A program made the position numbers and the translations under genes. A stretch of 64,000 nt of DNA from Bacteroidota bacterium (GTDB lineage: Bacteria > Bacteroidota > Bacteroidia > Chitinophagales > Chitinophagaceae), in contig JAUZOD010000001.1 in the NCBI GenBank assembly GCA_030706635.1, positions 186,001 through 250,000 on the forward strand. Direction: 5' to 3'. The notes beneath the pieces were generated by a model. It saw only the letters and a list, made by a program, of their open reading frames with translations. It ran no database searches and had not been told where the DNA came from. Shown piece after piece: positions 55,210 through 64,000 of the stretch (its first letter is position 1; each line of letters starts with the position of its first letter).

Positions 55210-56079
55210 TTGAATTTGAACCATACTTCACATCATAAGGTCCTGATCTTTGGCAAACGCAAGATGGGGTTTATACCCTTACAAAGTGCAGAAAATCACC
55301 CATTCTTTCTTATATCTCCATTCGATTTTGCCCGGATCAAAGAAAAAAAACTTGTTCGGAATTTATTTCCGGAATATCACCTATGGGATTTCATTTTGAA
55401 TAAGGACTGTTATACAAGCTCCGGAGTCATAAGGGAAAATACCTATATCCACTATTCCCCCGGCGAGCAAATGGCTGAAATTGAAATAGATAAAAACAGT
55501 GGTCTCCTCGTCATCTCAATCGTCGTAGGTCCCGGACTTATGCCCATTGGGGGCGCTCCGGTAAAACCGGGAGGAACTATAAGCGGGGCCATGATGAGGA
55601 TACTTTTAGAAATGGCCAATGAAAATCAAAAAGGTCAACCATCGGATCCGGCGCGGTTTTTTGCCCTAAAGTTGCTTCTAGCCCTCGCAACTCAACCGAA
55701 AGATGCACATAAAGCGTGCGCCCTATCCTTTTCAGATGCACGAAAAGTGCACGACATCATGGAGAGAGTAAAAATGCCGAAAGAGAAAGACAGGAGTTAT
55801 ATAAGGCTGTCGGATAGTTCGCATTTGAGTCTTCATTTGCTCAAATTGGGTTGCCGGGAATTATACGGGACAACCATCCCACAGATAGAGTTCCGGCTAA
55901 CTATGGAAAAATCCATGCGACTACTGTTGTCCGGGACCTTTTCCCTGCAGCAGATAAGTCAAATGGCGGGCTACGGGAGCCGATCCAACTTCATAACGGC
56001 ATTTAAAAGAAATTTCGGCATTACACCGTATCAGCTACGCGATTCGTTTAGACCGAAAACGAGAAGGCGAAATACCTAG
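55210..56079 (+). CDS. AraC family transcriptional regulator (copy 1)
   Basis: 289 residues. The C-terminal AraC HTH pair is visible in MRLLLSGTFSLQQISQMAGYGSRSNFITAFKRNFGITPYQLRD. The N-terminal 190 residues are a divergent sensor-type region without recognised domain. The start is doubtful: the frame begins at a TTG (55210), while an ATG at 55264 (MGFIPLQSAENHP) would give a 271-residue protein. It overlaps the next AraC gene by 45 bases, converging. Confidence 0.75.
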   Translation: MNLNHTSHHKVLIFGKRKMGFIPLQSAENHPFFLISPFDFARIKEKKLVRNLFPEYHLWDFILNKDCYTSSGVIRENTYIHYSPGEQMAEIEIDKNSGLLVISIVVGPGLMPIGGAPVKPGGTISGAMMRILLEMANENQKGQPSDPARFFALKLLLALATQPKDAHKACALSFSDARKVHDIMERVKMPKEKDRSYIRLSDSSHLSLHLLKLGCRELYGTTIPQIEFRLTMEKSMRLLLSGTFSLQQISQMAGYGSRSNFITAFKRNFGITPYQLRDSFRPKTRRRNT

Positions 56080-56937
56080 TTGCTTTTTAAATGATTTGGA
56101 AAAATGAGCGATATTCGAAAACCCGACCTCGCCGGATATACCATTTAATGACATACCGGTCGTATCAAGTAATTGCATTGCCAATTGTATTCGTGCCCGC
56201 ATAATAAACCTGAATATTGTTAATCCGTATATCCTTTTAAATTCGATTTTTAACCGGTATTCATTGATTCCTGCCCGGATTGACAGGTTTTTAAAGGTAA
56301 AGCGGCCGGCCAGGTTTCTTAATATATATTCCCCAAGGTCGTAAATCCGGTCCTGATCGTAAGCAGGTGTACTTTCATGTTGGGTAACAATCTTGTACCA
56401 GGTAATTTGTTTCAGATATGAAAGCAACAGATATTCCATTCTGGCCTCTAATAACCGGGTGTCTGGTTTTGAATAGGCAACTTCCTCCAGTATTTCCTCG
56501 ACCAGCCTCTGGATCTCTGGCCCGGCCGAAATCGCCAATTCTGTTAAGCAGCCATCTTTCCGCTCTGTAACTAATTGCATGAAATTCTTCAATATATAAA
56601 ACGACGACTCAAATAAATGAAGCCGGTCCGGAGAAATGTAAAGACTCAGCAACTCATAATGCCCCGCAGTCGGCAGGTGAACCTTATAGTCAATGCCGGA
56701 TTCGTAAAAGAGTTGACAGCAGTATTGAGGCAACAAACAGTTCCGGACAAAAAAAGCCTTTCTGAGCGCAAAAACCAAACGGGCATAGCCGGGATAACCA
56801 CTCAGCAAAAAATCCGATGCAGATTGAACGTCAAACTCAGAAATAACCAGGGCAAACCCGGGACCTGCCGGCGGCGCACGCAGATCAATCCTGAATGAGT
56901 CCCCCTCACTGACTAAGTATCCTTTGCTGGAACGCAT
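56035..56937 (-). CDS. AraC family transcriptional regulator (copy 2)
   Basis: 300 residues. The C-terminal HTH region reads MRARIQLAMQLLDTTGMSLN and GISGEVGFSNIAHFSKSFKK, with the normal two helix-turn-helix units. The N-terminal region (about 1-200) is divergent from copy 1 but has the same general layout. It ends inside copy 1, with the two stops 45 bases past each other, and is divergent from copy 3 across about 96 bases. Confidence 0.8.
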   Translation of the reverse strand: MRSSKGYLVSEGDSFRIDLRAPPAGPGFALVISEFDVQSASDFLLSGYPGYARLVFALRKAFFVRNCLLPQYCCQLFYESGIDYKVHLPTAGHYELLSLYISPDRLHLFESSFYILKNFMQLVTERKDGCLTELAISAGPEIQRLVEEILEEVAYSKPDTRLLEARMEYLLLSYLKQITWYKIVTQHESTPAYDQDRIYDLGEYILRNLAGRFTFKNLSIRAGINEYRLKIEFKRIYGLTIFRFIMRARIQLAMQLLDTTGMSLNGISGEVGFSNIAHFSKSFKKQLGISPSRFRSKRIA

Positions 56938-57033
56938 AAGTAAGGTTTACTGAATTTACACAAAAATTCAAATTATTTACTCCGTAATTGACAATACTAA
57001 AATCGAAGGCAGCGCTAGCTTTGAGAAAAGCCC

Positions 57034-57963
57034 ATGCTTCCAGTATTAACCTCCGGAATATCCGGAAATATTGCTTTATGCCCGGACAAAAATCCCGGAT
57101 TTCCCGTATTAGCGGGCTGGGATTATTACACCGGCGGAAATAATTATCCGGTGAAGCTTCAGCTCTGTTCAAATAATTTTATACAGGTCGAGTTATATGC
57201 AATACATCCAAAACGCAGTGAGCAAATCCGTTTCTCAGACATTATGTATCCGGGTCTGGTCATTTCCGTTTTTGGCAAAAGTTGCTATGTAAAATACAGT
57301 TCCCGCGAGAAATTACTATTCCATGACCGAAGCTGCCACCTCGTTCGCAATGCCCCAGATGACTATTTCGTGGAATTTCCGGTTGACGGGCAATATTTGA
57401 TCTCTTTCATCCGGTATGCAAATGATTTCGCCTTATCACTGGATACAAAGTTATTTGGCATGACAGTTCGCCGTCCTGTAATCCTCAACAGAGAAGGAAT
57501 GGAACTACTTTCTGCGTTGCACTTTGATCCGCAATATATCGATATGTCCGATTTCATTCGGGAGGAAATCCTGCGGTTTCTAATCACCTGGTATTTCAAC
57601 CGGGCTACCGCTGGATTCCTTCAACCGTCACATATAAGCCCGGAAGAAGCCGAAACGTTTTATGACGAGAAAAACATCCTGCTGGAATCAGCTAATCATC
57701 GTTTACCCGTTCAGGAACTCCTCAGATCAGCCGGTATCCGGAATATTTATCTGTTTCGGAAGAGATTAAGACAATTTTACGGCCTAAATATCAGGGCGTT
57801 TCTCACAGAGGCAAAACTTCTGAAAGCCGTAACCTTACTAAAAGATCAGGAATTTTCGATCAAACAAATTGCCTCCATGGCGGGATTTGTGAATGTCTCC
57901 TACTTTACCCGTGTTTTCACCCTGTATTTTCATGAACCGCCCGGCAAATTCCAGAAATCATAA
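57034..57963 (+). CDS. AraC family transcriptional regulator (copy 3)
   Basis: 309 residues with the C-terminal HTH pair in ILLESANHRLPVQELLRSAG and LLKDQEFSIKQIASMAGFVN, followed by SYFTRVFTLYFHEPPGKFQ. The N-terminal 200 residues are a divergent domain resembling copy 2 in layout. It is the nearest regulator upstream of the MauE-like gene (113-base gap) and shares its direction, so it is the best candidate controller of that operon. Confidence 0.8.
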   Translation: MLPVLTSGISGNIALCPDKNPGFPVLAGWDYYTGGNNYPVKLQLCSNNFIQVELYAIHPKRSEQIRFSDIMYPGLVISVFGKSCYVKYSSREKLLFHDRSCHLVRNAPDDYFVEFPVDGQYLISFIRYANDFALSLDTKLFGMTVRRPVILNREGMELLSALHFDPQYIDMSDFIREEILRFLITWYFNRATAGFLQPSHISPEEAETFYDEKNILLESANHRLPVQELLRSAGIRNIYLFRKRLRQFYGLNIRAFLTEAKLLKAVTLLKDQEFSIKQIASMAGFVNVSYFTRVFTLYFHEPPGKFQKS

Positions 57964-58051: not shown

Positions 58052-58066
58052 ATTCGTTAAACGAAT
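58052..58066 (+). promoter_or_regulatory. Perfect 15-bp palindrome just upstream of the MauE-like gene
   Basis: ATTCGTT-A-AACGAAT is a perfect inverted repeat with 7-base arms around one base. It lies 9 bases before the ATG at 58076, in the 113-base gap after the third AraC gene. It may be a regulator binding site, or a leader hairpin; such 7-base arms do arise by chance a few times in a window this size, so position is the main support. Confidence 0.4.
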
Positions 58067-58075
58067 ATAAAAATC

Positions 58076-58513
58076 ATGATGAAGATAAAAGCCATAGCCA
58101 TTGAAATCATTTCTACCTTATTCGTGATCCTTTTTATTTACGCCGCAGCAAGCAAATTGATGGACATCCAGAAGTTCCGGGTCCAGATTGGACAATCGCC
58201 TTTACTGACCCGTTATGTTGGCCTGATAATCTATGGAATCCCGGCCCTGGAAATCCTCATATCGTCAATGATTATCTATCCGGCGTTGAGAAAAACCGGC
58301 CTTTACGCCTCGTTTACACTAATGACCGCTTTTACGCTTTACATCGTCGCCCTGCTGCATTATGACTCGCATGTGCCCTGCTCATGCGGCGGCATTTTGC
58401 AAAAAATGTCCTGGAACACCCACATCTGGTTCAATACAGTATTTATCATTCTGTCAGTAGCCGGAATCCTCCTGGAGGAGCAGAAGGAACAACATTTTGT
58501 TGCAATAAAATAA
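58076..58513 (+). CDS. MauE/DoxX-like redox-associated membrane protein
   Basis: 145 residues with four transmembrane helices (about 8-24, 45-68, 75-96 and 113-133). The MauE-type Cys pair is Cys102 and Cys104 in HVPCSCGGILQKMSW. MauE in methylamine-utilising bacteria works with thioredoxin-like MauD to form or maintain disulfides in the small subunit of methylamine dehydrogenase. In Bacteroidota, MauE homologues lie beside small cysteine peptides. Here the next gene is such a peptide. Confidence 0.85.
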   Translation: MMKIKAIAIEIISTLFVILFIYAAASKLMDIQKFRVQIGQSPLLTRYVGLIIYGIPALEILISSMIIYPALRKTGLYASFTLMTAFTLYIVALLHYDSHVPCSCGGILQKMSWNTHIWFNTVFIILSVAGILLEEQKEQHFVAIK

Positions 58514-58569
58514 GGGTAAGCCGAAAACCTTAAATAGAGTAGGCAGTATTCCTCACATAAAGTTTTTTA

Positions 58570-58593
58570 CCGCTTTTTAAAATATAAAAGCGG
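58570..58593 (+). promoter_or_regulatory. Hairpin directly upstream of the cysteine-peptide start
   Basis: CCGCTTTT pairs with AAAAGCGG (8-base stem, 8-base loop), ending 8 bases before the ATG at 58602. No T-run follows, so it is not a terminator. It may stabilise the 5' end of a processed transcript, act as a processing site, or affect translation. Confidence 0.5.
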
Positions 58594-58601
58594 AACATTC
58601 C

Positions 58602-58826
58602 ATGAAAAAAATAAAAATCGGACTTACCGCATCGGCAATCGTCTTTGCATTGATTGGTGCCTTCGCCTTTAAAACACCTAAAGAACTGCTTTCAGATGGT
58701 TATCAAGGCACACCATGCGTCCAAGTGACGACATGCGGGGCAGGGAGTTTCACCTGTAAGTTTAATGGCCAAACGGCTTTTACTACTAGCTCCTGCATAA
58801 CTGCAGCTAAGCAGGAAAACCCTTAA
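58602..58826 (+). CDS. Exported four-cysteine peptide, DUF6520-like
   Basis: 74 residues. MKKIKIGLTASAIVFALIGA and following FAF form a signal peptide or leader; about 45 residues remain. Mature part contains four cysteines (Cys39, 45, 52, 65), which could make two disulfides, in a Gly/Thr/Ser-rich context (CVQVTTCGAGSFTC). This looks like the DUF6520 family of small Bacteroidota proteins, which have no known function. It follows the MauE-like gene, with a hairpin in front and a terminator behind, a layout that would let the peptide be made in much greater amounts than its neighbours. Confidence 0.8.
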   Translation: MKKIKIGLTASAIVFALIGAFAFKTPKELLSDGYQGTPCVQVTTCGAGSFTCKFNGQTAFTTSSCITAAKQENP

Positions 58827-58835
58827 GGTTTGATG

Positions 58836-58862
58836 AAAGGGGGCAAACAGATGCCCCTTTTT
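58836..58862 (+). terminator. Rho-independent terminator after the cysteine-peptide gene
   Basis: AAAGGGGGCA pairs with TGCCCCTTT, allowing one bulged G, around a 6-base loop, and the final T-run extends to five. It begins 9 bases after the peptide stop and lies ahead of the 355-residue gene, so that gene is probably expressed at a lower level. Confidence 0.85.
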
Positions 58863-58895
58863 AACTACAATTTAAATTAACTATAAAATATCCCG

Positions 58896-59963
58896 ATGTC
58901 CGTAGGGAATAAATTACTGATCTGTTTTGCATTTTCCGCTCTTCTGATTATTGGACTGGGAATTGATGCTATTTATAACACACATTACCTCTCAGCGTTT
59001 AGACGGTTGTATCCTCCTCACACCCTGAATAACCCAAGCATCATTCAGCTTCCAAAGGAAAAGTTCTACATCGCAGGCTGCACATCTAAGTATATCTATC
59101 TCGGCAGTTATTCCTTACCCTTTCATTTATTGAGGATTGACTTTTCACTGAAGGATAGCCTATCCATAAATTTGCCAATTCCAAAAGGAAACCGTTTGCA
59201 TGGTAAAACAATAAAGCTACAATTAGACTCCCCCAATATTTATTTGGTGGATGAATCCAATACAACGATTCTTTCCTGCCCCATTTCCAATCCCGATAGC
59301 CTTCGTTACCTGCCAATCAAAATTCGGATTCCTTCGCTTGAATGCAAAGCAATAAGTGCCTGCAGTTTTATTGTCAGGAACGCGGACTCAAGCGCAAAAT
59401 CTGCAGTTTTAACCAAACTCTCCTCCAATTCAATTCCGACGAAAGTAATGAGCAGGAATCTATTGCAAAAACAGATTGATGGTATTTTTGATACCGACGG
59501 AATGTTGCATTTTGATCAGTCTCTAAATCAACTGGTCTACGTTTATTTCTACCGGAATCAATACATCGTAATGGATACAAATCTCCGGGTTCAATGCCGG
59601 GGTAAAACATTGGATAGCAACAGTAAGGCAAAAATCAGTGTGACATATATCCCCTCAGACGATGAAACAACAATGTCCATGCCGCCATTTTCAGTAAATA
59701 AATTGAGTGCTGTGGACGAGGACTATCTGTTTATTCAATCCGCCTTGATGGCTGTAAATGAAGACAAAAATGCGTTTCGGAACAACTCCGCTATGGACGT
59801 TTATAACCTGAAGAAGCAGCTCTATGAATTTAGCTTTTACCTTCCCAGCACAGCAAATAACAAAATGCAGAGTTTTAAAGTTTCGCACCAGAAATTGATC
59901 GCCTTGCATGGGCCGTATTTGGAGGTGTACCAGATCAACCCTGGGTATTTAACCCGGCACTAA
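58896..59963 (+). CDS. Anchored protein of unknown function, 355 aa
   Basis: An N-terminal hydrophobic helix (LLICFAFSALLIIGLGIDAIY) is followed by about 330 soluble residues rich in beta-strand patterns. Several stretches suggest a beta-propeller-like repeat (KYIYLGSYSLPFHLLRIDF, PNIYLVDESNTTILSCPIS, NQLVYVYFYRNQYIVMDTN), comparable to six-bladed propeller proteins, but I cannot assign a family. It lies in the MauE/peptide direction behind a terminator and overlaps the TlpA-like gene end by 4 bases. Role in the system unknown; it may be the periplasmic partner of the MauE-like protein. Confidence 0.65.
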   Translation: MSVGNKLLICFAFSALLIIGLGIDAIYNTHYLSAFRRLYPPHTLNNPSIIQLPKEKFYIAGCTSKYIYLGSYSLPFHLLRIDFSLKDSLSINLPIPKGNRLHGKTIKLQLDSPNIYLVDESNTTILSCPISNPDSLRYLPIKIRIPSLECKAISACSFIVRNADSSAKSAVLTKLSSNSIPTKVMSRNLLQKQIDGIFDTDGMLHFDQSLNQLVYVYFYRNQYIVMDTNLRVQCRGKTLDSNSKAKISVTYIPSDDETTMSMPPFSVNKLSAVDEDYLFIQSALMAVNEDKNAFRNNSAMDVYNLKKQLYEFSFYLPSTANNKMQSFKVSHQKLIALHGPYLEVYQINPGYLTRH

Positions 59964-61306
59964 CCCGCTGTTTCATTAACCGGATCACGGATAACAATTA
60001 CATTCATTTCCTTAAGCCCCTGTTCAAGGATTAGTCCCTTTTTCCGGATAGCCTTTTTTATATCATTCAAATCCGTCATTATAGCACTGAATTCCAGGTC
60101 AATATTGTCCTTTATCCCCGTTTCATCAACGAACATTTGTGTTTGATAATAGCTGTCTAAATCGGAAATCAGGTCCTTCACCGGCCTGTTTACCAACAAT
60201 AAATGGATGAAGTCAGCATCAAAAACAGGTTTCTCCCCTTTTGTCTTTAATAGCCGCTTCGCGACCGCCGTCGAAGTTATTTTAAAGTAGGGCTCTGATC
60301 TCCTTTCCACCCGCACACTAAATCCAAAATAATTTTTCAGGTCATTCCGCATAATCTGCTGAAGATAATGGGCATTAGCCTTCTCCTCTGGAACAATCAG
60401 GCTATAACTATAAAGATTGTCTCCTGTTACCGAACTGAATTGAAACAGAGAAGTGTCACTCATTTCGAGTACCGGAAAATACTTCCAGTTGCCATAGTGA
60501 TTTTGGACGTCCCCGGCTTGACCTATCATACGGGGATAGGTAAACGGGACGGTGTCTCCATAAGCCAGCCTGTATAAGAAATAAAGAGGTATCCCGGTCA
60601 TTTGAATCATTTTACCATCTCTACTGCTTATATAATCATCATAATGGAACGAGCTTTTCGGATCCCATTTCGCCAGCAGGGATCTGAATAAGAAAGCAGT
60701 ATCCGATCCGCCGTTGCCATCAATCAACAAAGGCTTTTGATCGTTGTAATAGTCATCTAACGCCGATTCCTGTTGCGAATTAAGACACAGCCGGGCATGC
60801 AGGGATTTGCCCGCAATAAAATCCAGCGCCTCATCCCTTTCTATATTTGTCGTTACCGCCTTTACAATTCCATTGCCATCGATCCATATAGCGTATGGAA
60901 CATGATCTATTTGAAATTGCCTGAACAACAGCGTATCATAAACAACTGGGAGATTCAATCCGTAATGCCTCCTGAATTTTTCATAATAATTCCGGATGAA
61001 CCGGTCATCCTTGCCAACCAAAATAATCTGGATCTTATCCTTAAACTCCTTCTGAATTTGGTTGATCTTTGGCATCCGGATAAAACAAATATCACAGCCC
61101 GCTGAAAAAAACTCGAGTATTATCCGTTTGTTTCTGAGATCGCCCAATGAAGCCCGTTTTAATGAGAAATAACTGATATTATTAAGTTCAAAATCCGGAC
61201 AGGACTTTCCCACGACAGGGAAATTTTCATTAGAGGATGTCTGGGCAAGACAAGGAGAATTGACCAGTGTAAAAAGGCAAAAAGCAACTATTTTGGATAT
61301 TTTCAT
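59960..61306 (-). CDS. TlpA-like thioredoxin with C-terminal DUF3738-like region
   Basis: 448 residues. Signal peptide to about 21 (CLFTLVNSPCLAQ). Thioredoxin fold (about 30-165) with the active site FFSAGCDICFIRMPK (Cys71 and Cys74; CDIC rather than CGPC) and cis-Pro segment HVPYAIWIDGNG. The C-terminal half (about 200-445) ends in a pattern like the DUF3738 / TIGR03435 domain (NRPVKDLISDL, FVDETGIKDNIDLEFSA, then KKGLILEQGLKEMNVIVI). Predicted extracytoplasmic thiol-disulfide exchange. It is the last gene of the minus-strand SusC-SusD-TlpA run and converges on the MauE/peptide operon. Confidence 0.82.
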   Translation of the reverse strand: MKISKIVAFCLFTLVNSPCLAQTSSNENFPVVGKSCPDFELNNISYFSLKRASLGDLRNKRIILEFFSAGCDICFIRMPKINQIQKEFKDKIQIILVGKDDRFIRNYYEKFRRHYGLNLPVVYDTLLFRQFQIDHVPYAIWIDGNGIVKAVTTNIERDEALDFIAGKSLHARLCLNSQQESALDDYYNDQKPLLIDGNGGSDTAFLFRSLLAKWDPKSSFHYDDYISSRDGKMIQMTGIPLYFLYRLAYGDTVPFTYPRMIGQAGDVQNHYGNWKYFPVLEMSDTSLFQFSSVTGDNLYSYSLIVPEEKANAHYLQQIMRNDLKNYFGFSVRVERRSEPYFKITSTAVAKRLLKTKGEKPVFDADFIHLLLVNRPVKDLISDLDSYYQTQMFVDETGIKDNIDLEFSAIMTDLNDIKKAIRKKGLILEQGLKEMNVIVIRDPVNETAG

Positions 61307-61332
61307 TTGACTGGTTTAAAAGGAACCGGAAA

Positions 61333-62706
61333 TCAATACCCCTTATTTTGAATAAGGTTGGGATCATTCTGTATTTCGGTGATGGGAATGGGCGCAAGCG
61401 TATCGGTATCCTGCCAGCCCGGTTTTATAGGTGATAAAACAGCATTTGCCAGATGACGACGAACAAGATCAAACCAACGATGACCCCACTCACAAAATAA
61501 TTCATGACGTCTTTCAATACCTATCATGGCTAAACAGGAATCCTGCGTTGAAATACTTGAAAGAAGGGGCAAAGACGCGCGGCTCCGGATGGCATTGATG
61601 TCTTCAACTGACCCGGTAAAATTATTCTGCATAGCCCGGGCTTCGGCCCGGATTAAGTATTGCTCCGCCAACCGGAGAACCATATAATACTCCTGCAGAT
61701 TCCCACCGTTTTGAATCTCATATTTAAATGGAAAGAAGTAAGTATTTGGCCCAACGACAATACTATCTATCCAAATAGCTCTTCTGGCATCTCCGGGTTC
61801 CCAACTGTTAATCAGGGAATTGGAAAGCGCTACCTGCGCGGGCGCAGAAGTTGGCTGTCCATGGAGTATAAACTCATATCCTTCCCAGGTATTGTAGCTC
61901 GGATTCACCGGGGCCAGCTGCCAGATGGCCTCCGAACTATTTTTCAGAAAAACCTTGCTTAAATCAGTTTCAAGCTGATATAATCCTGATCCAATAACCT
62001 GGCTGGCAAACTGCTCGGCATCCACCCAATCGTGATCATAAAGTTTTACCCTCGCCATCAATGCCAGTGCCGAAGACCGGTTCACGCGTGCTCTCTCACC
62101 TCCCGAAAAATGGTAATCTATACTGAGTAAAGGAATTGCATCGCCCAGATCCTGCATGATTTTCTGAAAAATCTCTTTCCGGCTAATCTGAACGGCCTCT
62201 TGATTGGTACGATAATCTGTGGTACTGACGTAAGGGATGTTTCCAAAATATTGGAGAAGATAGAAATGACAGAAAGCTCGCAGAAACTTTACTTCGCCCT
62301 CAAACTGGCTCCTCGCCCCAGAACTGATTTTAAGAGAATGGCTAAGACCTTCCAGCACTGCGTTGGACTCGTAAATGTATTTATATGCAGTTTTCCACAA
62401 GGATTGCAGATTTGTACTTGCGGGATTGATGGCGTTATTGTAGAATGCAGACTGATCCGAACCAGCGGCATAGGTCTGAAACTCATCCGCCTGTAATCCC
62501 GTGAGTAGTGTGAGGTTACCCCCGCAGATTCCCAGGAAACTGGTCATCATATCGCCGTAAATTCCCGACACCGCCGCGTTGGCAGTAACACTATCTTCAA
62601 ACAGGGTCGAGTTGCTGAGCTGGGTTATCGGCGGAGCGACAGAAATCCATTTTTTGCAGGATCCTACAGCAAAAATTATTATCAGTATAATACAGATCCA
62701 TTTCAT
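61333..62706 (-). CDS. SusD/RagB-like outer membrane lipoprotein
   Basis: 457 residues with lipobox Cys in FAVGSC (about 17). The helical SusD features are SVTANAAVSGIYGDMM, GEVKFLRAFCHFYLLQYFGNIPY, ALALMARVKLYDHDWVDAE, VLRLAEQYLIRAEARAMQ, NAIRSRASLP and C-terminal ERRHELFCEWGHRWFDLVRR. It is a different subfamily from the SusD-like_2 copy at 19.5 kb. It lies 10 bases after the SusC-like gene and 27 bases ahead of the TlpA-like gene. Confidence 0.95.
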   Translation of the reverse strand: MKWICIILIIIFAVGSCKKWISVAPPITQLSNSTLFEDSVTANAAVSGIYGDMMTSFLGICGGNLTLLTGLQADEFQTYAAGSDQSAFYNNAINPASTNLQSLWKTAYKYIYESNAVLEGLSHSLKISSGARSQFEGEVKFLRAFCHFYLLQYFGNIPYVSTTDYRTNQEAVQISRKEIFQKIMQDLGDAIPLLSIDYHFSGGERARVNRSSALALMARVKLYDHDWVDAEQFASQVIGSGLYQLETDLSKVFLKNSSEAIWQLAPVNPSYNTWEGYEFILHGQPTSAPAQVALSNSLINSWEPGDARRAIWIDSIVVGPNTYFFPFKYEIQNGGNLQEYYMVLRLAEQYLIRAEARAMQNNFTGSVEDINAIRSRASLPLLSSISTQDSCLAMIGIERRHELFCEWGHRWFDLVRRHLANAVLSPIKPGWQDTDTLAPIPITEIQNDPNLIQNKGY

Positions 62707-62715
62707 AAATCATTT

Positions 62716-64000
62716 TTATAGCGTGAGCTGAATACCTCCGGTAAAAACGCGCAGGGGTGGCAGAGCCTGCAGATTTTGGTTTTCCGGGTCCATTCCCTGG
62801 TAGTGGGTAATCGTAATCAAGTTTTGTCCAAGGACATAAATTCTTCCTTCAGCTATATGCATTATTTTATTGAGCTTTTTTGGGAATCGATAAGATACGT
62901 TGACATTTTTCAAACGTATGAAAGAAGCGTCGCTGAACACCCTATCACTTGTGGGAACGTGGCTAAACGCTCCGTAGGCAGCCGAAGAATAGTCCTGAGT
63001 GAACATTTCAATGGAACGGTGATCATTTGCTGTCTGCCAGCGATCCAGTACCCAAACAGGCTGGTTACTCATCATGCCGGGAGAGATATAACTTCCATCC
63101 AGGTAATTCGCGCCGTTTTGATGGACAAAATAAAAAAAGCAATCCACAGACCAATTCCCGTATTCGAAATGGTTACGCAGACCACCATAATATTTTGGTT
63201 GGAGAGAAACAGCCCTGCTAAGATCATTCGGATAACTGATCAGTCCATCTTTATTCACGTCTTCAAATTCATCCAGGCCGGACAAAGGATTGACCCCCAG
63301 AAAATGAAAGACTTTCCTGATTTTAAGAGGTTCCCCCGTTTGATAAGTATTGGCATACGGCGATGAAGCAAGGTTCGGATAGGATACCAGTTCAGTTCGC
63401 GGAATAGTAAGCGTAATCCCACTTGTCCAGCTAAAAAACTTCCCCTTGACATTAACTGTATTTATTTCCAGTTCAAGGCCGCTATTTTGAACGGTGGCAG
63501 GCAGATTTGTCTGAACGGACGTAAAACCGGTTAGTACGGGCAACGAATAGGGGATCAGTTGATTGGAAGACCGGTTGCGATAATAATCGACTGTTATTAG
63601 TAGCCGGTTTCCAAGCAATCCAAGATCTATACCCATCTCCAATTTTCGGGTTAGCTCCCAACTGTAATCCGGGTTATATAAGCGTGTTGGCAAAAGTGTG
63701 CTGCCCTGAAGGTATGGGTAGAATGACGGACTCCACGTGTCCAGGTATTGGTAGTCCCCGATTTGGTCATTGCCTGTAGACCCATAACTGACTCTCAGTT
63801 TACCGAAACTGAACTGGGGAATGTTTTCAAGAATAAATGCTTCTTTGGAGAAAACCCATCCAGCGCCCAATGCCCCAAAATTGGCAAACTGCTTGCCAGG
63901 GCCAAAACGACTTGATCCGTCCCTCCGCGCAGTAAGATTCAACAGATATTTATCCTTATACTGGTAATTGATCCTTCCAAAAACAGCTTCATATTTATAA
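62716..64000 (-). CDS. SusC/RagA TonB-linked receptor, C-terminal part (5' end beyond window)
   Basis: The frame is open to the window edge and reads typical late-barrel SusC sequence: NYQYKDKYLLNLTARRDG, then SSRFGPGKQFANFGALGAGW, LRVSYGSTGNDQIGDY and the final C-terminal strand FTGGIQLTL. About 430 residues are visible. An in-frame TTG at 63942 is not the start. N-terminal plug and signal are outside. It forms a pair with the SusD-like gene and probably imports the substrate or delivers the peptide-related ligand. Confidence 0.93.
   Translation of the reverse strand, partial: YKYEAVFGRINYQYKDKYLLNLTARRDGSSRFGPGKQFANFGALGAGWVFSKEAFILENIPQFSFGKLRVSYGSTGNDQIGDYQYLDTWSPSFYPYLQGSTLLPTRLYNPDYSWELTRKLEMGIDLGLLGNRLLITVDYYRNRSSNQLIPYSLPVLTGFTSVQTNLPATVQNSGLELEINTVNVKGKFFSWTSGITLTIPRTELVSYPNLASSPYANTYQTGEPLKIRKVFHFLGVNPLSGLDEFEDVNKDGLISYPNDLSRAVSLQPKYYGGLRNHFEYGNWSVDCFFYFVHQNGANYLDGSYISPGMMSNQPVWVLDRWQTANDHRSIEMFTQDYSSAAYGAFSHVPTSDRVFSDASFIRLKNVNVSYRFPKKLNKIMHIAEGRIYVLGQNLITITHYQGMDPENQNLQALPPLRVFTGGIQLTL

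Follow-up and report, generated by a model that had tools for sequence, protein, structure and literature searches.

Gene organization of the locus

On what could a MauE homologue act in a locus that pairs it with a small exported cysteine-containing peptide, and why does this pair face a SusC-SusD operon? The window (the whole stretch of Bacteroidota DNA analysed, 64,000 nucleotides) carries, as the earlier note had described, plus-strand genes for MauE, the peptide and an anchored protein that converge on minus-strand genes for SusC, SusD and a TlpA-like protein. All of these are present, with the following layout:

57034..57963, plus strand: AraC-family regulator (PF12833, 52 bits), directly upstream of MauE
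58076..58513, plus strand: MauE (PF07291, 115 bits, cut-off 27), four predicted TM segments
58511..58545, plus strand: DUF805b cis-regulatory RNA (RF02914, 48.6 bits, gathering 35.6)
58570..58593, plus strand: inverted repeat CCGCTTTT/AAAAGCGG, between the RNA element and the peptide start
58602..58826, plus strand: precursor of an exported four-Cys peptide, DUF6520-like, 74 aa (sub-threshold PF20130)
58836..58861, plus strand: inverted repeat AAAGGGGGCA/TGCCCCTTTT, 3' of the peptide gene, possible attenuator
58896..59963, plus strand: membrane-anchored beta-propeller (ORF3; AlphaFold2 pLDDT 90.2)
59960..61306, minus strand: exported TlpA/ResA-type thioredoxin (CDIC) with DUF3738-like C-terminal domain (PF00578 above, PF12543 below cut-off)
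61333..62706, minus strand: SusD-like outer-membrane protein (PF14322 and PF07980)
62716..64000, minus strand: SusC TonB-dependent transporter, C-terminal part (PF00593); the gene runs past the window end

The earlier note had missed the DUF805b RNA, the upstream AraC gene and, beyond the window, FecR and ECF-sigma genes; the latter lie upstream of SusC in the extended own locus (L038), where the full-length SusC has a Plug domain and a sub-threshold STN match. Its residue assignments hold in the translations, both for the peptide cysteines (C39-x5-C45-x6-C52-x12-C65) and for the thioredoxin active site (C71-D-I-C74). The mature peptide, given there as 45 residues, would instead have about 52 if cut after AFA, the signal peptide occupying approximately codons 1-22 (both estimates by eye). 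Two of its labels stand as likenesses only: the peptide looks related to DUF6520 (PF20130), a Pfam family of unknown function, and at 22.8 bits against a cut-off of 25.4 is not a filed member, and the C-terminal domain of the TlpA-like protein scores 18.9 bits against the DUF3738 cut-off of 22. The protein that the note called anchored but unknown does have an anchor, a single helix, and its fold can now be given as a beta-propeller; the top PDB match listed is 3s9j, a DUF4221 protein (Z 18.9, 291 residues aligned, rmsd 3.7).

The genes form a recurrent cassette in Bacteroidota

The window genes are a recurrent cassette with many diversified copies in Bacteroidota. Headline counts are given for MauE-anchored loci only, namely 115 distinct family MauE (L058-L177) and 80 named Bacteroidota loci, because another locus set was partly picked by DUF6520 matches; the Mantel test, the SusD tree and the pooled peptide counts (Cys parity and spacing) described below include loci of that kind. 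Of 140 family regions prepared, 120 were used. The named loci, retrieved with a MauE pattern, comprise the 80 best among at least 581 relatives. Genes and signal peptides were called with custom scripts rather than a trained caller, and the peptide filter accepted small exported peptides with at least two cysteines downstream of MauE.

Such a peptide lies downstream of MauE at 96 of the 115 family loci and 63 of the 80 named loci, compared with 51 of 888 control genes passing the filter. The earlier note had named mostly separate occurrence of the two genes as the finding that would speak against it; at these loci they are instead linked. A SusD gene is convergent at 89/115 family and 59/80 named loci and on the same strand at 2/115 and 0/80, respectively. 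An AraC gene lies directly upstream on the same strand at 60 of the 115 family loci, and FecR or ECF genes are found in 16 of the 37 cassettes with enough sequence. The called downstream peptide is missing at 36 of 195 MauE loci; in some of these (L067, L227) a peptide lies farther away or upstream of MauE.

The association also appears when it is approached from the peptide family. Among the best 66 DUF6520 matches (weaker ones exist beyond these), 42 have one of the best 150 MauE matches within 3 kb, in every case on the same strand, compared with fewer than 0.1 expected by chance according to a hand estimate. The cassette gives DUF6520-like peptides a context. Conversely, 37 of the 150 listed MauE have one of these 66 matches within 3 kb, fewer than have a peptide by the Cys-peptide filter. 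The MauE search gave a match in 189 of 195 genomes, with up to 14 matches per genome. We also observed a second cassette type with MauE, TlpA and several Cys peptides, and with no SusCD within the stretch examined. The titles and abstract openings of the literature searched held no description of a MauE-peptide-SusCD cassette, and the searches found no mention of DUF6520 or DUF805b, subscription papers lying outside their scope.

A proposed two-sided model of the cassette

We propose that the cassette has two sides, an exported disulfide peptide and a cognate SusCD machine for its uptake and opening, a reading to which we give about an even chance of being right. On the first side (AraC, MauE, peptide and anchored beta-propeller), the peptide would cross the inner membrane via Sec, and MauE, aided by the propeller, would make or maintain its disulfide(s): a C-x6-8-C loop that is conserved and, in many cases, an additional outer pair. 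On the second side (ECF sigma, FecR, SusC, SusD, and TlpA or a peptidase), the mature peptide, alone or in a complex, would be captured at the outer membrane by the SusCD pair that matches it; the third protein would open the peptide by reduction (TlpA) or cut it (S9, M16 or S8 peptidase). We infer these biochemical steps of oxidation, secretion and import, the direction of transport, and a purpose that could be that of a signal, a scavenger or an antagonist. A group of SusDs tied to a self-encoded exported peptide would provide these SusC/D pairs with a ligand amenable to production and testing, and the cassette offers MauE a client outside methylamine metabolism.

A broader version, which we put forward tentatively and would not expect to hold, is that these are a Bacteroidota-wide class of ribosomal disulfide peptides with private SusCD receptors, in which mature peptide, TlpA or peptidase, SusD and SusC are swapped as a block and leader, MauE and regulators stay constant. 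If this were true, the peptides would amount to a language for signalling, scavenging or kin competition, and their SusCD pairs would be receptors, not nutrient importers.

Possible matching of SusCD to the mature peptide

SusC/D proteins typically take up glycans or peptides from the surroundings. The MauE-peptide operon could be a self-contained redox or stress device of the envelope, next to an ordinary nutrient system (SusCD with TlpA or peptidase) that shares its control and never contacts the peptide. We consider this unlikely. The second cassette type and the MauE loci with no called peptide speak for it, but the excess of convergent over same-strand SusD genes argues against it, as does the relationship among the SusDs themselves. 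The window SusD groups with other cassette SusDs in the tree, although SH-aLRT is only 64 on the branch that parts these from the others. The own genome, the only one for which SusD density was determined, has 20 PF14322 matches in 4.58 Mb, 18 of them over the cut-off; 18 of the 19 SusDs other than that of the window fall on one side of the tree. The 19th (L178) falls among the cassette SusDs, and at this locus, fetched solely as a SusD locus, an exported peptide with a C-x7-C motif faces the SusD gene.

Further evidence against separate systems comes from a genome (G067) with three cassettes, in which MauE and the peptide signal sequence share approximately 96% DNA identity and the mature peptide, TlpA, SusD and SusC differ. 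In all three pairs the DNA identity ends at peptide codon 29, the boundary between leader and mature peptide. In two of the pairs, MauE is 95-96% and the leader 95-100% identical, the mature peptide 27-34%, SusD 38-39% and TlpA 20-25%; the third pair, with MauE at 97% or more, fell outside the filter for these figures. The mature peptide thus co-segregates with TlpA-SusD-SusC in this genome. Modules that meet where the signal peptide ends allow a concrete test of receptor-ligand matching. The break between leader and mature peptide could also come from gene conversion of the MauE side.

Across 66 cassettes, partial Mantel tests point weakly in the same direction. The mature peptide correlates with TlpA (r 0.19, p 0.004) and with SusD (r 0.13, p 0.001) when MauE is controlled for, and not with MauE given TlpA and SusD (r 0.04, p 0.26). 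The leader follows MauE given SusD (r 0.36, p 0.001) and only weakly SusD given MauE (r 0.09, p 0.011). These effects are small, and the raw correlation of peptide with leader (0.21) is as large as that with TlpA (0.22). A pair of Flavivirga amylovorans loci (L263/L267) stands on the side of the self-contained device: MauE, propeller and leader are near-identical and SusD is 98.3% identical, yet identity drops to 50.7% in the mature peptides, so that the matching of peptide and SusD has exceptions. The earlier suggestion that SusC/D handles the peptide thus gains from the SusD grouping, from G067 and weakly from the family-wide correlations, and loses from the Flavivirga pair.

The peptide as a probable disulfide client and the possible role of the third gene

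In the two-sided model, the peptide would carry disulfides. In the pooled loci, 197 cassette peptides have an even number of cysteines and 7 an odd number, compared with 27 and 32 among control peptides. Two-Cys peptides have the spacing C-x6/7-C in 87 of 98 cases, and in 78 of 88 four-Cys peptides the second and third cysteines are separated by 6-8 residues. MauE itself has the motif P-C-S-C-G-G...W..H...N, four TM segments from hydropathy, and residues Y22, F34, Y89, C102, C104, W113, H116 and N120 invariant in 32 aligned sequences. It is fused to a propeller homologue in 32 of the 80 named loci and to TlpA at L058 and L064. Together, the even Cys counts and these fusions speak for a disulfide system whose probable client is the peptide.

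This part of the earlier proposal is strengthened, but the role it gave to the thioredoxin, oxidation of the peptide, is not supported. The window TlpA (PF00578 and PF13905 above cut-off) is ResA-like, and ResA is a reductase: ResA chains match its model (pLDDT 79.4) with Z of about 16 to 18, the thioredoxin part filling the list of structure matches, so that none listed assigns a fold to the C-terminal domain. The second active-site cysteine is absent in three of 69 TlpA proteins (L160, L161, L167), with L116 and L162 left unscored. The gene lies in the SusCD operon, and the slot of this third gene is filled either by a TlpA-type thioredoxin or by an S9, M16 or S8 peptidase, the S9 type occurring in 26 of the 80 named loci. 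Because TlpA shares the SusCD operon, resembles ResA and is swapped for a peptidase in many cassettes, opening or processing of the peptide appears at least as likely as its oxidation.

The cysteines might instead bind metal, in which case the peptide would be a ribosomal metallophore or buffer, MauE and TlpA would set its thiol state, SusCD with ECF/FecR would retrieve the loaded peptide, and the reductase or peptidase would open it to free the metal. We regard this as improbable. Even numbers of cysteines are more readily explained by disulfides than by free-thiol ligands. ECF and FecR do adjoin SusC in the extended own locus, and bufferins, likewise Sec-exported Cys peptides, have doxX genes in many of their clusters (PMC12452194). 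However, the own genome has no match to the DUF692/MNIO family (PF05114), for which 2 of 14 control genomes were positive. The bufferin paper mentions neither "SusC" nor "MauE" in its main text (PMC12452194). Also improbable is antagonism or kin recognition, in which the mature peptide would be a toxin or signal that enters relatives via cognate SusCD, the producer being protected by TlpA or the peptidase: fast, modular mature regions behind constant leaders, tandem peptide copies (L131, L145, L146) and the many MauE per genome would suit it, but an unsystematic look at the genes scanned recognised no dedicated exporter to the outside and no immunity gene.

Comparison with known systems

In its layout, the cassette of the two-sided model may best be read as resembling isopeptidase-type lasso-peptide clusters. 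In the clusters of astexin and sphingopyxin, a regulator is described as preceding the gene for the precursor, together with a TonB-dependent transporter, a sigma/anti-sigma pair and an enzyme of the prolyl-oligopeptidase family that is specific for opening its own peptide (PMC9266682). The counterparts in the cassette are AraC, the peptide, SusC/SusD, ECF/FecR and, as third gene, TlpA or a peptidase of the S9 prolyl-oligopeptidase family. The cassette differs in that its precursor carries paired cysteines behind a Sec-type signal, that among the genes scanned MauE and the propeller stand where lasso maturation genes would be, that SusD is added, and that in the window a thioredoxin, and no prolyl-oligopeptidase, takes the slot of the opener. 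No lasso leader protease or cyclase was found among the genes Pfam-scanned in the window and the extended own locus.

The large subunit of methylamine dehydrogenase (MADH) is a propeller, and its cofactor TTQ requires Trp. The cassette resembles MauE/MauD maturation of MADH in combining MauE and a thioredoxin-type protein with a small exported protein that contains cysteines, and in the presence of a propeller. However, the cassette peptides have only about 60-150 aa, TlpA belongs to the opposite operon, and the propeller is membrane-anchored. A methylamine-dehydrogenase-like reading was rejected because the peptide of the window lacks a Trp for TTQ and the top propeller match listed is DUF4221. 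The MADH light chain (PF02975) has no match in the own genome, a search that likewise gave none in 14 control genomes and so neither confirms nor contradicts the earlier note's statement that no methylamine dehydrogenase gene is present; that the heavy chain is not among the PDB matches listed for ORF3 carries no weight. Homologues of MauE/MauD are also reported in candidate Streptomyces RiPP clusters (PMC7794033).

Cis-regulatory elements

Scans for canonical terminators and promoters at the locus found nothing above shuffles, and the terminator scan did not flag the AAAGGGGGCA/TGCCCCTTTT repeat. The DUF805b RNA starts where MauE ends, at its stop codon, has a pseudoknot stem GCC/GGC and is the sole match in its own genome at E 0.1; its second stem covaries (92 sequences). 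A DUF805b-like regex matched at 96 of 172 loci, compared with 4 of 172 after letter shuffling, a count obtained after loosening a stricter earlier regex that had matched at 66 of 172. We rejected a peptide regulon defined by DUF805b, as many of the elements inspected precede other genes (for example those of a rhodopsin-like protein and GG-motif peptides, labelled by eye). The pseudoknot-bearing form of this RNA precedes DUF6520-like peptides.

Cassette organization and linkage

In the window, plus-strand genes ending in an anchored protein converge on a minus-strand operon encoding a TlpA-like protein, SusD and SusC.

57034-57963, plus strand: AraC-family gene upstream of MauE
58076-58513, plus strand: MauE
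58511-58545: DUF805b RNA element (Rfam, 48.6 bits; gathering threshold 35.6)
58602-58826, plus strand: exported peptide of 74 residues, cysteines at 39, 45, 52 and 65
58896-59963, plus strand: anchored protein
59960-61306, minus strand: TlpA-like protein with a CDIC site
61333-62706, minus strand: SusD
62716 onward, minus strand: SusC

The four cysteines and the CDIC site agree with the earlier note, which had placed a MauE-like protein, a cysteine peptide, a thioredoxin and SusC/D in one locus. In the extended locus, FecR and ECF sigma factor genes lie outside the window, next to the minus-strand operon. Three consecutive AraC-family genes (55210-57963; plus, minus, plus) end immediately 5' of the cassette.

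The grouping holds across genomes, with a linkage far stronger than a single sequence could show. Of 115 distinct MauE-anchored loci from the family, 96 have an exported peptide bearing two or more cysteines 3' of MauE, as do 63 of 80 named loci (the best 80 of at least 581 relatives, with record titles from Flavobacteriia, Cytophagia, Sphingobacteriia and Chitinophagia). The identical filter gave a hit for 51 of 888 control genes located 4.5 kb or more from MauE. The cassette is likewise conserved in orientation: SusD is convergent in 89 of the 115 family loci and 59 of the 80 named loci, same-strand in 2 and 0, respectively, and TlpA is convergent in 71 of the 115. Since the window's genome, to which this density applies, has 20 PF14322 matches (18 above cut-off) in 4.58 Mb, a SusD lying no more than 7 kb away in one particular orientation is expected to be rare there by chance. 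Of the 66 best DUF6520 matches in 195 family genomes, 42 have one of the 150 listed MauE matches no more than 3 kb away, in every case on the same strand.

Five Flavivirga loci (L227, L240, L253, L254 and L261) have a four-cysteine exported ORF 5' rather than 3' of MauE and were scored as lacking a peptide in these counts. Another MauE context is seen in L083, L095, L102 and L123, where a short ORF, HTH-like by eye, and a gene of 715 to 774 aa replace the peptide. In a second cassette type (L062, L067, L068, L072, L084, L094 and L098), MauE adjoins a gene of about 515 aa, together with TlpA, and no SusCD occurs within the stretch shown; most of these loci have several four- to six-cysteine peptides. 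The ~515-aa proteins of L068, L084 and L098 are multi-TM by hydropathy and GT-C-like by eye, without a Pfam match, and L068 and L084 contain a family-2 glycosyltransferase; peptides of this type are possibly glycosylated.

A tree of 70 of the 139 cassette SusDs and 19 others from the window's genome places 18 of the 19 on one side (SH-aLRT 64). The 19th groups with cassette SusDs, in a group of four with SH-aLRT 94. Its 3.5-kb locus, chosen for SusD alone, contains a C-x7-C exported peptide convergent on SusD, and is a second cassette in this genome (L178:74-2049, contig C20). A MauE truncated at the end of contig C122 may belong to it.

Peptide cysteines and partner proteins

Cysteines of the mature region follow a disulfide-type pattern. 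Counted over related sequences rather than independent trials, they are even in number in 197 and odd in 7 of 204 distinct cysteine-bearing cassette peptides (119 and 4 for the family loci alone, 65 and 1 for the named loci), versus 27 and 32 in control ORFs passing the identical filter; C-x6/7-C spacing occurs in 87 of 98 two-cysteine peptides, 6 to 8 residues separate the second and third cysteines in 78 of 88 four-cysteine peptides, and Lys or Arg is among the final five residues in 128 of 186 two- or four-cysteine peptides (54 expected by resampling). These spacings suggest that the inner loop is conserved and the outer pair optional. Related exported cysteine peptides are arrayed in tandem 3' of a single MauE in L145, L146 and L131 (at least four each) and L084 (three).

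All 131 cassette MauE proteins have a CxC motif, and 32 aligned sequences share invariant Y22, F34, Y89, C102, C104, W113, H116 and N120. The anchored protein is predicted to be a beta-propeller preceded by a single helix (pLDDT 90.2, pTM 0.87), and the top PDB match listed for it is the DUF4221 protein 3s9j (Z 18.9, rmsd 3.7, 291 aligned, 9% identity). Of the 80 named loci, 32 encode a MauE fusion with a homologue of this protein and 38 carry that homologue as a separate gene; in L058 and L064, the fusion partner of MauE is a TlpA-type domain. The window TlpA has a ResA-like thioredoxin domain; among 69 TlpA proteins, 3 retain only the first active-site cysteine and 2 could not be resolved. 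TlpA and peptidases interchange as the third gene: of the 59 named loci in which SusCD is convergent, 19 have TlpA, 26 an S9 peptidase, 2 M16, 2 TlpA plus S8, and 10 none recognized, with Pfam checked on examples. All 26 S9 cassettes with a called peptide have the four-cysteine type whereas 64 of 89 TlpA cassettes have a two-cysteine peptide, a contrast confounded with phylogeny.

The mature peptide and the convergent operon

In one genome, G067, the mature peptide co-segregates with the operon it faces. A block of about 2.9 to 3.1 kb with 95.5 to 96.7% DNA identity is common to three loci (L065, L069 and L071); it spans a gene with weak FecR_C resemblance, an ECF sigma gene, MauE and peptide codons 1 to 29. 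Identity stops after codon 29 and, short weaker patches within susC aside, resumes (80 to 88%) only at the susC 5' end and upstream. In two of the three pairs, protein identity is 95 to 96% for MauE and 95 to 100% for the leader, and 27 to 34% for the mature peptide, 38 to 39% for SusD and 20 to 25% for TlpA. SusC of L071 is split into two ORFs. L087 and L108 of the same genome are 97% identical throughout, without a break between leader and mature peptide.

In partial Mantel tests on 66 cassettes, the mature peptide tracks TlpA and SusD, not MauE, with small effects, and the leader tracks mainly MauE and, weakly, SusD; the raw peptide-leader correlation (0.21) equals that of peptide and TlpA (0.22). 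Adjacent cassettes of Flavivirga amylovorans (L263 and L267) are counter-evidence to matching between peptide and SusCD: MauE (99.3% DNA), propeller (97.3%), leader (98.7%) and SusD (98.3% protein) are nearly identical, but the mature peptides are just 50.7% identical. TlpA, DUF4397 and a 792-residue gene occur in L263 only.

A plausible functional account is that the peptide would be exported via Sec, oxidized by MauE, captured by SusCD, and opened by TlpA or cleaved by the peptidase. The oxidation step extends MauE's role with MauD in methylamine dehydrogenase, a disulfide role termed speculated in PMC7794033. As outlined in PMC9266682, isopeptidase-type lasso-peptide clusters combine a regulator and precursor with a TonB-dependent transporter, a sigma/anti-sigma pair and an opener of the prolyl-oligopeptidase family that acts only on its own peptide, their purpose likewise unsettled. 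The cassette parallels that layout and would similarly work as a make-retrieve-open circuit. Because the window cassette's opener, unlike theirs, would be a thioredoxin and the genes scanned included no lasso genes, we do not class it with them. A bolder reading, in which the cassettes form a private peptide-receptor language with SusCD pairs as receptors, we consider less likely than not.

The DUF805b RNA element

The element at 58511-58545 is the sole DUF805b match in the window's genome at E 0.1. By regular expression, it precedes the first peptide in 96 of 172 sequences versus 4 of 172 letter-shuffled ones. The Rfam structure line has a single stem; a covarying pseudoknot stem absent from that line is apparent in the alignment. 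This second, crossing stem varies in sequence (GCC/GGC, GATC/GATC, GACC/GGTC, TCC/GGA among them), with 96.4% of cells paired and double changes numbering 57 versus 15.9 when shuffled, and is lost when slid. The regular expression used to choose the alignment constrains the loops but leaves the stem free. At E 0.1, Rfam misses the Flavobacteriia forms of L228 (GATC/GATC) and L263 (GACC/GGTC). DUF805b matches occur in 151 of 195 family genomes, and since the element precedes other genes elsewhere in the family, it is not peptide-specific. In L280, L299, L294 and L295, the genes it precedes encode, as labeled by eye, small peptides with a GG motif and a protein resembling rhodopsin.
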